DNA of 42,832 nucleotides from Lentisphaeria bacterium (GTDB lineage Bacteria; Verrucomicrobiota; Lentisphaeria; Victivallales; Victivallaceae): NCBI GenBank assembly GCA_017505415.1, contig JAFVPG010000246.1, positions 1-42,832 of the forward strand, written 5' to 3'. Position numbers and translations under genes: made by a program. The notes below the pieces were generated by a model. That model saw only the letters and a program-made list of their open reading frames with translations, ran no database searches and was not told the DNA's origin. The number at the start of each line of letters is the position of its first letter. Within the stretch, counting starts at the first letter, position 1. This document shows, piece by piece, positions 11,028-15,631 of the stretch.

Positions 11028-14000
11028 TTAGTCGTTACTCTTTTTCACAGTACGGATGTCGAGACCGAGACTCTGCATTTCTTTAAGCAGAACGTTGAAA
11101 GATTCAGGACGACCGGCATCGAGGACATTCTGACCTCTGACGATAGACTCGTAAATCCGTGCGCGACCAGCCTGGTCGTCACTCTTGACTGTGAGCATTT
11201 CCTGCAGGTTATATGCTGCGCCGTAGGCTTCGAGAGCCCAGACTTCCATTTCACCGAAACGCTGACCGCCGTGCTGGGCTTTACCGCCGAGCGGCTGCTG
11301 GGTAACCAGTGAATAGGGACCGACCGCACGGGCATGGATCTTGTGTGCAACCAAGTGGTCGAGTTTAAGCATATAAACATAACCGACCAGAACACGCTGA
11401 TCAAAGGGATCACCTGTTCTGCCGTCATACAAATCTGATTTACCGTCATAGACATAACCGCTGTCAGTTCTGCGGAAGCCCCAGTGACGTTCAACACCGT
11501 CTTCTTTGGAAACTTTAGCGTTTGCCTGTTTCATCAAATCAATGATTTGATCTTCCTGAATACCGTCAAAGACAGGAGTTGCAACCTTGATACCGAGCAT
11601 TTTTGCAGCCCAGCCGAGATGGGTTTCAAGCACCTGACCGACATTCATACGGCTCGGCACACCGAGCGGATTGAGGATAATATCAACGGGACGGCCGTCT
11701 TCGAGGAAGGGCATATCTTCAACGGGAACGATTTTGGCAACAATACCTTTGTTACCGTGACGACCCGCCATTTTGTCACCGACCTGAATCTTGTGCTTGC
11801 ATCCGACGTAAACTTTAACACGTTTGATAACACCCATTGACATGGTTTCGCCGGATTCGAGACGTGCCTGATAGTCACGGCGGTATTCTTCGTTTTCTGC
11901 AAAACGGGGAATATATTCAGCAATGATCTCAGTGATTTTTTCTTTGAGCGGACATTCTTCCATATCCCATGCGGAATGATGAACAGCCAACTTCTGAATT
12001 GAGCTGCGGGTGACCTTACGGTTTGAACTGATCAATACTGCATCGTTCTTTTCAGGAGTTTTATCAATAATGGGATGCGGAAGTTTATTACCGAGCATTT
12101 CAGCAGAGAGTTTATCGGTAAGTTCTTCGATAAGCTCATTCTGTTTGCGGCGGTATTCATCCTTGTATTCTTTTGCCTGACGGCGCATTTCAGTCTTGGT
12201 CATGGACTGACGGTTGGGATCATTGGCATACTCAATACGAATATCCATGACAGTACCGCCCTTACCTGAAACAGTCAAGCTGGCATCTTTGACATCTGCA
12301 GCTTTTTCACCGAAAATGGCATGGAGCAAACGTTCTTCAGGTGCAAGTTCAGTTTCATTTTTGGGCTGAATCTTACCGACAAGAATATCGCCGAGTTTAA
12401 CCTCCGCACCTTCAAAAACAACACCGTGACTGTCAAGATTACGCAAAGCTTCATCGCTGACATTGGGAATATCACGGGTGATTTCTTCCGGGCCGAGTTT
12501 GGTTTCACGACTGATGATTTCAAATTCGTCGATATGGATTGAGGTATAAACGTCTTCTTTGACCAGACGTTCACTGACAATGATAGCGTCCTCAAAGTTG
12601 TAACCGCACCACGGCATGTAAGCAACCATTACGTTGCGTCCGAGAGCAAGTTCACCCCCCTGAGTTGCAGCACCGTCAGCAATAACATCACCTTTTTTCA
12701 CAACCTGACCGCTGCGGACAACAGGACGCTGATTGATACAGCATCCGGCATTGCTGCGGAGGAACTTGTGAACTTTGTATTCAATACCGGGAGCATCAGG
12801 AGATGCTTTAGGCAAACCGTCGGGAGTAATTACAATGCGATTGGTCTGGACAGAAGCAACAATACCGTCCTCTTTGGCAACAAGAACTGCACGTGAGTCA
12901 CGGGCAATAGTTTCTTCCAAACCAGTACCGACGATGGGAGAATCAGTTTCAAGAACCGGAACAGCCTGACGCTGCATGTTTGATCCCATCAAAGCCCGGT
13001 TAGCGTCGTCGTGTTCAAGGAACGGAATGATACCGGCAGCAGCAGAAACAAGCTGTTTCGGTGAAACGTCCATGTACTGAACTTCATCTTTGGGATGTTC
13101 TTCTGATTCACCTTTGTAACGGGACATGACCATGTCACGGACGAAACGGTTGTTTTCATCAAGCAATGCGTTTGCCTGGGCAATAACAAATTTTTCTTCC
13201 TTATCAGCAGTCAGAAATTCAACAGTATCAGTAACCTGACCGTCAACAACTTTACGGTAGGGAGTTTCAAGGAAACCGTATTCATTGATAACTGCATAGA
13301 GTGAAAGTGAAGAGATCAAACCGATGTTCGGACCTTCAGGAGTTTCGATCGGACAGATACGTCCATAGTGACTTGTATGAACGTCGCGGACTTCAAAACC
13401 GGCACGGTCACGGGACAAACCGCCCGGACCCAATGCACTCAAACGACGTTTGTTGGTAAGTTCACTCAAAGGATTGATCTGATCCATGAACTGTGAAAGC
13501 TGACTGCGTGCAAAGAAATCACGGATAACTCCGGAGAAAGATTTCGGATTGATAAGTTTTCCGGGAGTGATATTGGTGTCTTCATTGTTGTTGAAAAGAG
13601 TCATGCGTTCACGAACCATACGTTCGGTACGCAGCAAACCTGCACGGCACTGATTCTGGAGCAATTCTCCGACAGTACGGACACGGCGGTTGCCCAAATG
13701 GTCAATATCATCGACTTCGCCGTTTCTGTGACGCATCTGAATAAGAACCTTGGTAGCTTCCATGAGGTCAAGTTTATTCAAAGTGCGTTCAGTCAGGGGC
13801 AGATCAAGACCGAGGCGTTCATTGATTTTGAAACGTCCGACAGTACCGAGGTCATAACGCAAATTGTCAAAGAAAAGACGTTTGACAAGAAGTTTGGCAT
13901 TGGCAATATTCGGGGGATCTCCGGGACGCATGCGGCGATAAATCTCTTTGAGAGCGCCTTCTTCGTCACGGGAAGGATCTTTGCGCAGACAGCCGATGAT

Positions 14001-14840
14001 ATAATGGTCGCCGTCAGCGACATGAGCCAAATCAATTGACTTGATACCGGCATCCTGAAGAAGCTGAAGATGATTTTCAGTGATCTGAACAAGCTCTTCG
14101 ATAATGACGACATCATTTTCATTGGTAATATCATCAATGGTGTAATAACCGTCAAGAGAGTCTTTTTTGAGCAGAGAAGCAACAGTGTGAGTTTCGACAG
14201 TGTAGATATTTTCGAGGATGTCACGGTTGCTTTCATAACCGATTGCACGCAGGAAAGTTGTAATGAGGAACTTGCGGCGGCGACGGCGGCGATCAAGATA
14301 GATATAGATGTAATCATTGATGTCAAACTGAACATCCATCCATGAGCCGCGATCGGGAGTAATTCTGTATGAATAAAGAGTTCTGCCGGAAGTATGACGT
14401 GCTTTTTCAAAGCAGATACCGGGAGAACGGTGCAGCTGACTGATGATAACACGTTCGGCACCATTGATAATAAAAGTACCGCTTTCGGTCATAATGGGAA
14501 TGTCACCCATGTAAACATCTTCTTCAGTTTCAACGCCATTGCGTTTCAAACGGAATTTGACATACAAGGGGGCATCATAAAGTTTACCGTCCTTGATACA
14601 TTCAACAACTTCAGTCTTGGGCGTGCCGACTTCATAAGATACGAATTCGACAGAGGACTGACCGTCAAAACTGGTGATCGGGAAAATCTCATTGAAGACT
14701 TCCTGAAGACCCTGATTTTTGCGTTCCGCAGGCGGAACGTCCTGCTGGAGGAAATTGCGGTAAGAGTCGATTTGCAAGCCGATCAAGTCCGGCACTGCAA
14801 GGACATTCTGCAATTTACCAAAACTAATGCGATTACTCAT
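11028..14840 (-). CDS. rpoB: DNA-directed RNA polymerase subunit beta
   Basis: 1270 aa. The beta subunit of RNA polymerase, collinear with bacterial RpoB. The rifampicin-region sequence [16 protein letters not shown] followed by [12 protein letters not shown] is present, as are [16 protein letters not shown] and the C-terminal [20 protein letters not shown]. The ATG start is preceded by CGGTGA. The 400 nt upstream separate it from rplL and contain an unusual set of hairpins. rpoC follows after 17 nt, so the pair is co-transcribed. Confidence 0.98.
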
Positions 14841-14911
14841 GTTTCACCGTTTCGTTAAAGGTTATGTTAAAGTTTAATAATTCCGGAATAAGAATGACTG
14901 ATTGTCTGTCA

Positions 14912-14933
14912 GCAAGCAAAAAACCACACTTGC
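14912..14933 (-). repeat. Loop-conserved hairpin, copy C
   Basis: GCAAG (14912-14916) pairs with CTTGC (14929-14933). The 12-nt loop contains the 10-nt core AAAAAACCAC (14918-14927; GTGGTTTTTT in the rpoB transcript). The same core fills the loops of copies A and B. This copy has the shortest stem and lies about 70 nt before the rpoB start. Confidence 0.5.
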
Positions 14934-14972
14934 CGGAGATTTCATCCCCGAGTTCCAGACAAAATAAGTCAA

Positions 14973-14994
14973 TTCCAAAGATAAACCACCTGAA
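14973..14994 (-). repeat. Degenerate loop-conserved element, copy D
   Basis: ATAAACCAC (14981-14989), flanked by AG and CTG, resembles the AAAAAACCAC core and flanks of copies A and B but is one base shorter. A stem can be drawn only with a 3-nt bulge (TTC-AG against CTGAA). I treat it as a probable degenerate member. Confidence 0.3.
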
Positions 14995-15027
14995 TACGAA
15001 AAAAACAAAAAAAGAAAAAAATCAAAC

Positions 15028-15055
15028 TTTTTTACGATTTTTTTTAGCTTTTTTT
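15028..15055. other. Three phased A/T tracts before rpoB
   Basis: On the + strand, T-runs of 6, 8 and 7 (15028-15033, 15038-15045, 15049-15055) have centres about 10-11 nt apart, the spacing expected of curved DNA. They lie within a low-complexity AT-rich stretch (15000-15060). They may help an rpoB promoter or weaken transcription locally. No convincing -35/-10 pair was found downstream. Confidence 0.35.
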
Positions 15056-15115
15056 GCAATTAAAACAATTAAAATGATTTATCTTTGAAATTGACTCAAA
15101 AAATCAAGAAAAATT

Positions 15116-15143
15116 GCGGTACAGAAAAAACCACCTGCACCGC
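15116..15143 (-). repeat. Loop-conserved hairpin, copy B
   Basis: GCGGTACAG (15116-15124) pairs with CTGCACCGC (15135-15143). In the transcript the one imperfect position is a G-U wobble, so all nine pairs form. The loop is exactly AAAAAACCAC (15125-15134). Its stem sequence differs from copy A beyond the loop-closing CAG/CTG, while the loop is identical. Confidence 0.6.
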
Positions 15144-15153
15144 CATTTCTCAT

Positions 15154-15184
15154 CTTCCTTGCAGAAAAAACCACCTGCAGGAAG
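15154..15184 (-). repeat. Loop-conserved hairpin, copy A
   Basis: CTTCCTTGCAG (15154-15164) pairs with CTGCAGGAAG (15175-15184), with one bulged base. The loop is exactly AAAAAACCAC (15165-15174), the same ten bases as in copies B and C. It lies just after the attenuator-like hairpin that follows rplL, so it is probably transcribed in rplL-rpoB read-through RNA. Confidence 0.6.
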
Positions 15185-15193
15185 TTATCGAAA

Positions 15194-15221
15194 CAGAGAG
15201 GCTTCGATGAAGCCTCATCTG
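15194..15221 (-). terminator. Attenuator-like hairpin between rplL and rpoB
   Basis: GAGGCTTC (15198-15205) pairs perfectly with GAAGCCTC (15209-15216) across a GAT triloop. The stem extends by CAGA/TCTG after one bulged A. On the minus strand only TTTCG follows, a weak T-run. That fits partial termination, in the position of the known E. coli rplL-rpoB attenuator. It begins 21 nt past the rplL stop. Confidence 0.55.
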
Positions 15222-15241: not shown

Positions 15242-15631
15242 TTACTTGAGTTCGACAGCAGCACCGGCGCCTTCGAGCTGAGCTTTGATTTTTTCAGCTT
15301 CTTCTTTGGCAACGCCTTCTTTGACGGGTTTGGGTGCGCCTTCAACGAGGTCTTTAGCTTCTTTGAGACCGAGACCGGTGATAGCACGGACTTCTTTGAT
15401 AACAGCAACTTTGTTGTCGCCGAAAGATTTGAGGATGACGTCGAAGTCAGTTTTTTCTTCAGCAGCAGCTGCAGCGCCAGCGGCGGGAGCAGCAACAGCA
15501 GCAACAGCAACAGGAGCTGCAGCGCTGACGCCAAGACGTTCTTCAAGAGCTTTGACGAGTTTAGAAAGTTCGAGAACAGTCATGTTCTCAACATAAGAGA
15601 TGAATTCTTCCATTTTGTTTTCTTCTGACAT
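15242..15631 (-). CDS. rplL: 50S ribosomal protein L7/L12
   Basis: 129 aa. The stalk protein that recruits translation GTPases as dimers bound to L10. An N-terminal dimerisation region (about 1-40) is followed by an Ala/Val-rich hinge (about 53-85, very rich in AAPAA runs). The C-terminal domain contains [20 protein letters not shown] and ends in VELK, as in the family. GGAGG lies 9 nt before the ATG. It is separated from rplJ by 32 nt. Confidence 0.97.

Follow-up and report, generated by a model that had tools for sequence, protein, structure and literature searches.

The L10 leader is a kink-turn RNA that lies upstream of rplJ. Feedback on rplJL or on rpoBC has been described, and in E. coli the autogenous control of rpoBC is separate from that of rplJL (PMC10931766). 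The Lacto-rpoB RNA motif of Lactobacillales (RF01709) is rated as a likely cis-regulator in the table of the corresponding paper (PMC2864571). Regarding elongation, NusG-dependent pausing in B. subtilis occurs at sites formed by a hairpin and a TTNTTT motif, with the hairpin preceding the paused 3' end by 11-12 nt (PMC12288461). The balance between RNA polymerase and ribosomes is poorly known outside a few model bacteria.

The window analysed here is the whole stretch of 42,832 nucleotides, and its source genome is a draft assembly. An Rfam scan of the window returned three tRNAs only, with no named family in the rplL-rpoB gap and no match to the L10 leader anywhere in the window, and the Lacto-rpoB model gave no match either at its gathering score or at E <= 5. 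The phylum guessed in the first-pass annotation agrees with the relatives named through RplL, which belong to Lentisphaeria/Victivallis and include uncultured Victivallis.

A repeated hairpin loop between rplL and rpoB

In the minus-strand transcript, rplL (15631-15242) is followed by a gap of 401 nt and then by rpoB (14840-11028). The string GUGGUUUUUU occurs three times in this gap, and every copy forms the loop of a hairpin. The genes and hairpins concerned are the following:

15242..15631, minus strand: rplL (ribosomal protein L7/L12), upstream gene, identified from its translation
11028..14840, minus strand: rpoB (RNA polymerase beta), downstream gene, identified from its translation
15154..15184, minus strand: GUGG-loop hairpin 1, loop 15165-15174, -14.8 kcal/mol alone, model R1 E 0.001 genome-wide
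15116..15143, minus strand: GUGG-loop hairpin 2, loop 15125-15134, -17.4 kcal/mol, R1 E 3e-4
14910..14935, minus strand: GUGG-loop hairpin 3, loop 14918-14927, -11.2 kcal/mol, R1 E 2.9e-4

The first-pass annotation had described three exact 10-nt copies filling the loops of different stems, and both the positions of AAAAAACCAC (14918-14927, 15125-15134 and 15165-15174) and the folds are confirmed. In the minus-strand RNA the stem arms are all different (CUUCCUGCAG/CUGCAAGGAAG, GCGGUGCAG/CUGUACCGC and CGGCAAGU/GCUUGCUG), and the folding z values of hairpins 1, 2 and 3 are -3.7, -5.1 and -2.3. Hairpin 1 has an identical position and spacing in the relative G001; the loops of hairpins 1 and 2 start 40 nt apart, hairpin 2 being the downstream one, and hairpin 3 lies 87 nt before the rpoB start codon. 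Hairpin 2 is followed by a U-rich stretch 3' of its stem in the window's genome, and hence has also been called terminator-like. The U tract that follows the stem directly in an intrinsic terminator is replaced, in most GUGG hairpins, by mixed sequence.

The three copies of AAAAAACCAC compare with 0.16 expected in the window, and at least three were obtained in 0 of 100 shuffles. Over the whole genome the core 10-mer shows no enrichment (13 copies, the reversed control having 17), and when that genome was searched with the covariance model R1 at E <= 1, the only three matches were the gap hairpins; the remaining ten genomic copies of the core gave no hairpin score in this search.

Loop conservation and spacing among relatives

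The comparison sample was drawn from 52 genomes of the window's family (the Victivallis family of Lentisphaeria), each contributing its rplL-rpoB gap, and nine more gaps were added later; the genus labels used below (g8, g5, g14, g30, g31) are arbitrary labels of this comparison set. Hairpins with the loop GUGGUNUUUU or a near variant of it were found in 33 of the 52 gaps, amounting to 77, and the total after the nine additions rose to 105 hairpins in 42 loci, with one to five hairpins in each array-bearing gap. The exact loop is present in 59 copies in the 18.4 kb of gap sequence from the 52 gaps, 55 of which are enclosed by a stem of 4 bp, compared with a mean of 15.7 and a maximum of 24 in 1000 shuffles of the 3' flanks. 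No antisense copy was found in those gaps, and no copy at all in 123 kb of flanking sequence from the 52 genomes. Two outcomes named beforehand as speaking against a functional element, namely that the loop would not be conserved in related gaps and that its core would be equally common in random intergenic DNA, are thus contradicted, the latter by the genome-wide counts given above and by its absence from the flanks.

The loop follows the consensus GUGG-UN-UUUU, in which the outer parts are near-invariant and the middle, at positions 5 and 6, is variable. It begins with GUGGU in 64 of 69 cases, position 5 being A in four others and G in one, and three loci (L062-L064) carry a one-base insertion in the middle of the loop. 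Neighbouring loops are separated by 38-45 nt in 31 of 63 cases, compared with a mean of 5.9 and a maximum of 14 under random placement; this suggests a regular feature, although the relatives are non-independent and so do not offer a clean test.

Pairing of the loops with a shared RNA partner, either a small RNA or rRNA, would agree with a loop that stays invariant while the stems vary, and ten further copies of the complement are present in the window's genome. However, there is no exact complement in the gaps (where antisense copies are nil) or in their flanks, the best 16S matches are no better than those of the reversed control, no consistent partner appears in rplL, the gap or the start of rpoB, and loop positions 5 and 6 vary, so that this explanation is considered highly unlikely.

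RNA structure and strand

In the comparison of the hairpins from related gaps, both sides vary at all 9 modelled stem pairs, with 86.8% of the cells paired (53% when shuffled) and a covariation score of 0.88, against 0.25 for shuffled sequences and at most 0.27 when the alignment was slid. The covariance check on related gaps that the first-pass annotation had proposed therefore gave a positive answer at every pair. Requiring four pairs biases the statistics of the inner pairs, and the analysis was repeated on 97 loops picked by loop sequence only; in this set, free of any stem requirement, stem positions 2-5 are paired in 93, 94, 88 and 82 of the 97.

Across stem positions 2-12 of the same 97 loops there are 120 G-U and 34 A-C combinations, and U-G closes the stem in 71 of the 97; the opposite strand would read these pairs as A-C. 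The excess of G-U and this closing pair show that the mRNA strand is the structured and functional one. A covarying structure is tied to one gene across species, as in a cis-regulatory RNA, and the array is almost certainly a real, conserved RNA element.

Inverted repeats in multiple copies would also be expected of a DNA-level feature, such as an operator or a cruciform, or of a mobile or REP-like palindrome. In DNA, however, the closing pair of most copies would be a T-G mismatch, and the preference for G-U over A-C, the constant single orientation and the confinement of unrelated stems to one locus make these explanations hardly tenable and largely refuted; mobile or REP-like palindromes in particular are ruled out by one locus, one orientation and unrelated stems.

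Distribution and history of the array

Strong R1 matches are found only in rplL-rpoB gaps across 60 genomes of the family, 137 of the order and 388 of the phylum (overlapping sets). Matches elsewhere are weak and scattered, and those inspected mostly overlap the reading frames of unrelated genes, which leads to the rejection of a genome-wide regulon. Likewise, the matches in two single-contig genomes of a distant family, with R1 E values of about 0.001, were judged to be due to chance, one lying in coding sequence (L215) and the other overlapping an open reading frame (L216).

In a tree built from the N-terminal parts of RpoB, the array is present in 41 of the 42 loci of one clade (support 0.99), which corresponds to a group of gut and rumen bacteria. 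Outside that clade it appears in one of the two genomes of the sister genus g5 and in 0 of the 28 remaining loci, so the array would have been gained once or twice and then kept, perhaps with a loss in g14. In other families of the order the rplL-rpoB gap measures about 110-420 nt and lacks the array; therefore, the element is not essential for the rplL-rpoB operon. In more deeply branching relatives the gap is for the most part short and contains a single ancestral hairpin.

Some gaps contain other conserved sequences. The sister genera g30 and g31 both lack the array, and the gaps of g30 (L039, L043 and L046) share the blocks TTCTTGACCGAATCTTTCCGG, AACTCACTTGGCAAGA and TTACACCAAGGATGAG, which perhaps constitute a different rpoB leader element. 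Eight loci from other families of the order (L230-L237) have a conserved stretch before rpoB, GACAGCTC.TG..AAC...AATGACAGGGTGGAA, without the GUGG hairpin. Moreover, genome G068 carries a second, diverged rplL-rpoB pair (contig C40, 78225-79561), whose products are 64% and 49% identical to the proteins of the window; it is either a second copy or contamination.

Neighbouring elements and transcription into rpoB

Two other elements of the gap accompany the array:

15189..15216, minus strand: element A, hairpin 3' of rplL (GAGGCUUCAUCGAAGCCUC) with the tail UCUGUUUCG, a terminator-like pick
14957..15098, minus strand: element C, inverted repeat 15098-15072 / 14991-14965 with the tail UUUUGUCU, from folding and relatives

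Both consist of a hairpin with a T-rich tail behind it (TTnTTTYGTnT). Hairpins like that of element A, with this tail, are found in gaps with and without GUGG hairpins; they are conserved throughout the family and extend to several further families of the order. Most of the gaps in the other families have a hairpin resembling site A behind rplL. Element A is probably ancestral, judging from this distribution, and is predicted to be, probably, a pause or an attenuator.

In the window, element C has arms of 27 bp around some 80 nt of very AT-rich sequence (-46.5 kcal/mol, z -9.8). The degenerate fourth copy of the loop proposed in the first-pass annotation at 14981-14989 is in fact part of its 3' arm. 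A counterpart with the tail TTTTGTCT exists in G001 (locus L023), an apparently similar arrangement is found in G002, and the combination CCGA..TCGG plus TTnTTTTGTGT is present in many related genomes. The tail of site C could be that of an ordinary terminator or pause.

In the Victivallis-like genus g8, a GUGG (or AUGG) hairpin, either the last of the array or a late one, tops site C in the seven loci folded of a total of nine (L032, L042, L059, L061, L066, L068 and L069), giving a CCGA stem, the loop and UCGG, followed by TTTCTTTGTG or a close variant; an eighth locus, L024, has the same arrangement by eye only and is the weakest case. In the other genera, site C and the GUGG hairpins are separate. 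The arrangement in g8 provides the best hint of a mechanism, because the loop hairpin occupies the place expected of a hairpin behind a polymerase that pauses or terminates, and it suggests that in g8 the GUGG hairpin may act on transcription into rpoB.

Post-transcriptional uncoupling of the abundant rplL message from the scarcer rpoBC message, by an endonuclease or an RNA chaperone cutting or protecting the mRNA, would suit hairpins on the mRNA strand that separate rpoB from a ribosomal gene of high expression, and in E. coli the rplL-rpoB gap is indeed processed by RNase III. Nevertheless, the stems, at 5-12 bp, do not reach the length of usual RNase III sites, RNase III and RNase E are not known to require an invariant 10-nt loop, and the last hairpin of g8 is fused to a pause-like site; a processing or stability element is thus regarded as somewhat unlikely.

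The proximity of tandem hairpins to sites with a hairpin and a T-rich tail, and their occurrence before rpoB only, would also agree with an RNA that binds the polymerase directly, as in phage HK022 put, where the nascent hairpins would make the elongating enzyme resist or respond to a pause or terminator in the gap. Such an RNA, acting on its own polymerase, would be usable anywhere in the genome, yet the array is confined to one locus, which makes this possibility distinctly unlikely.

A proposed function in the control of rpoBC

The reading that best fits these observations is that of a clade-specific cis-regulatory RNA array for rpoBC acting through a putative loop-binding factor. From its sequence, the array appears as a set of mRNA-strand hairpins with a near-invariant loop and free stems, frequently spaced at 38-45 nt, at a single locus and in one clade. 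Its position and its exclusivity make control of rpoBC probable, whereas action on elongation through a loop-binding protein is put forward tentatively, as a serious possibility. The earlier proposal, that rpoBC is controlled by an RNA site present in several copies whose loop is conserved while the stems differ, has thus gained loop conservation and stem covariation, while for the control of rpoBC it still depends on what we infer.

It is proposed that the one to five identical-loop hairpins of the rplL-rpoB intercistronic RNA would bind one sequence-specific factor, whose binding would set the amount of transcription or mRNA continuing into rpoBC. The loop GUGGUNUUUU would be read by a protein, possibly RNA polymerase itself or an elongation factor, and the bound factor would alter read-through or pausing at sites A and C of the same gap. 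Autogenous control by the polymerase, the least certain of these steps, would agree with the restriction of the site to the position before rpoB. In a more specific version, considered unlikely, the polymerase, or else a new protein dedicated to RNA binding, would form a clade-specific autogenous circuit: it would register how many GUGGUNUUUU loops are occupied on the nascent leader of its own rpoBC message and adjust its own production accordingly, at the site with the hairpin and T-rich tail. An RRM protein was rejected as the binder: RRM genes are present in 56 of the 60 genomes of the family, whether or not these carry the array, and are absent from the nearly complete array-bearing genomes G002 and G058, so that they do not track it.

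In the open-access literature, to which the search was limited (subscription papers lying outside it), no paper on this element was found, and it appears to be an as yet undescribed element controlling the synthesis of RNA polymerase. Being compact, strongly covarying and restricted to rpoB, it offers a near-invariant loop usable as bait for the factor, and the copy numbers differing among close relatives constitute natural variants for dose tests.

Comparison with known systems

Sites A and C resemble NusG-dependent pause sites in having a hairpin and then a TTnTTT-like tail, while the GUGG hairpins outside g8 are not part of such a signal. The NusG encoded in the window reads RGTQGV at the place concerned, where that of B. 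subtilis presumably reads RNTPGV, so that the T is kept and the N changed; NusG-dependent pausing at these sites is, by analogy, a lead.

Like the array, the nut boxB of lambda and HK022 put form hairpins in the nascent RNA, ahead of sites resembling terminators or pauses. The loop of the array is unlike boxB, however, and no boxA is seen in the gap; antitermination of the boxA type was rejected, the rRNA-leader boxA of these bacteria, GTTGTTTGAAAATTGAATAG, not being seen in the gaps when read by eye.

RNAs of the CsrB/RsmZ type share with the array a multivalent binding architecture, in which a short motif is presented by the loops of numerous hairpins whose stems are unrelated. They differ in that the loop GUGGUNUUUU lacks the CsrA-type ANGGA core (the 69 loops being dominated by GUGGU) and in that the array lies in cis within an operon and is not a separate RNA.

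The L10(L12)4 leader and the control of rpoBC in E. coli concern the same operon as the array. Finally, the Lacto-rpoB motif is the nearest in idea, as a conserved structured RNA named for rpoB, although it belongs to another phylum and the array consists of a small hairpin in multiple copies with one invariant loop.
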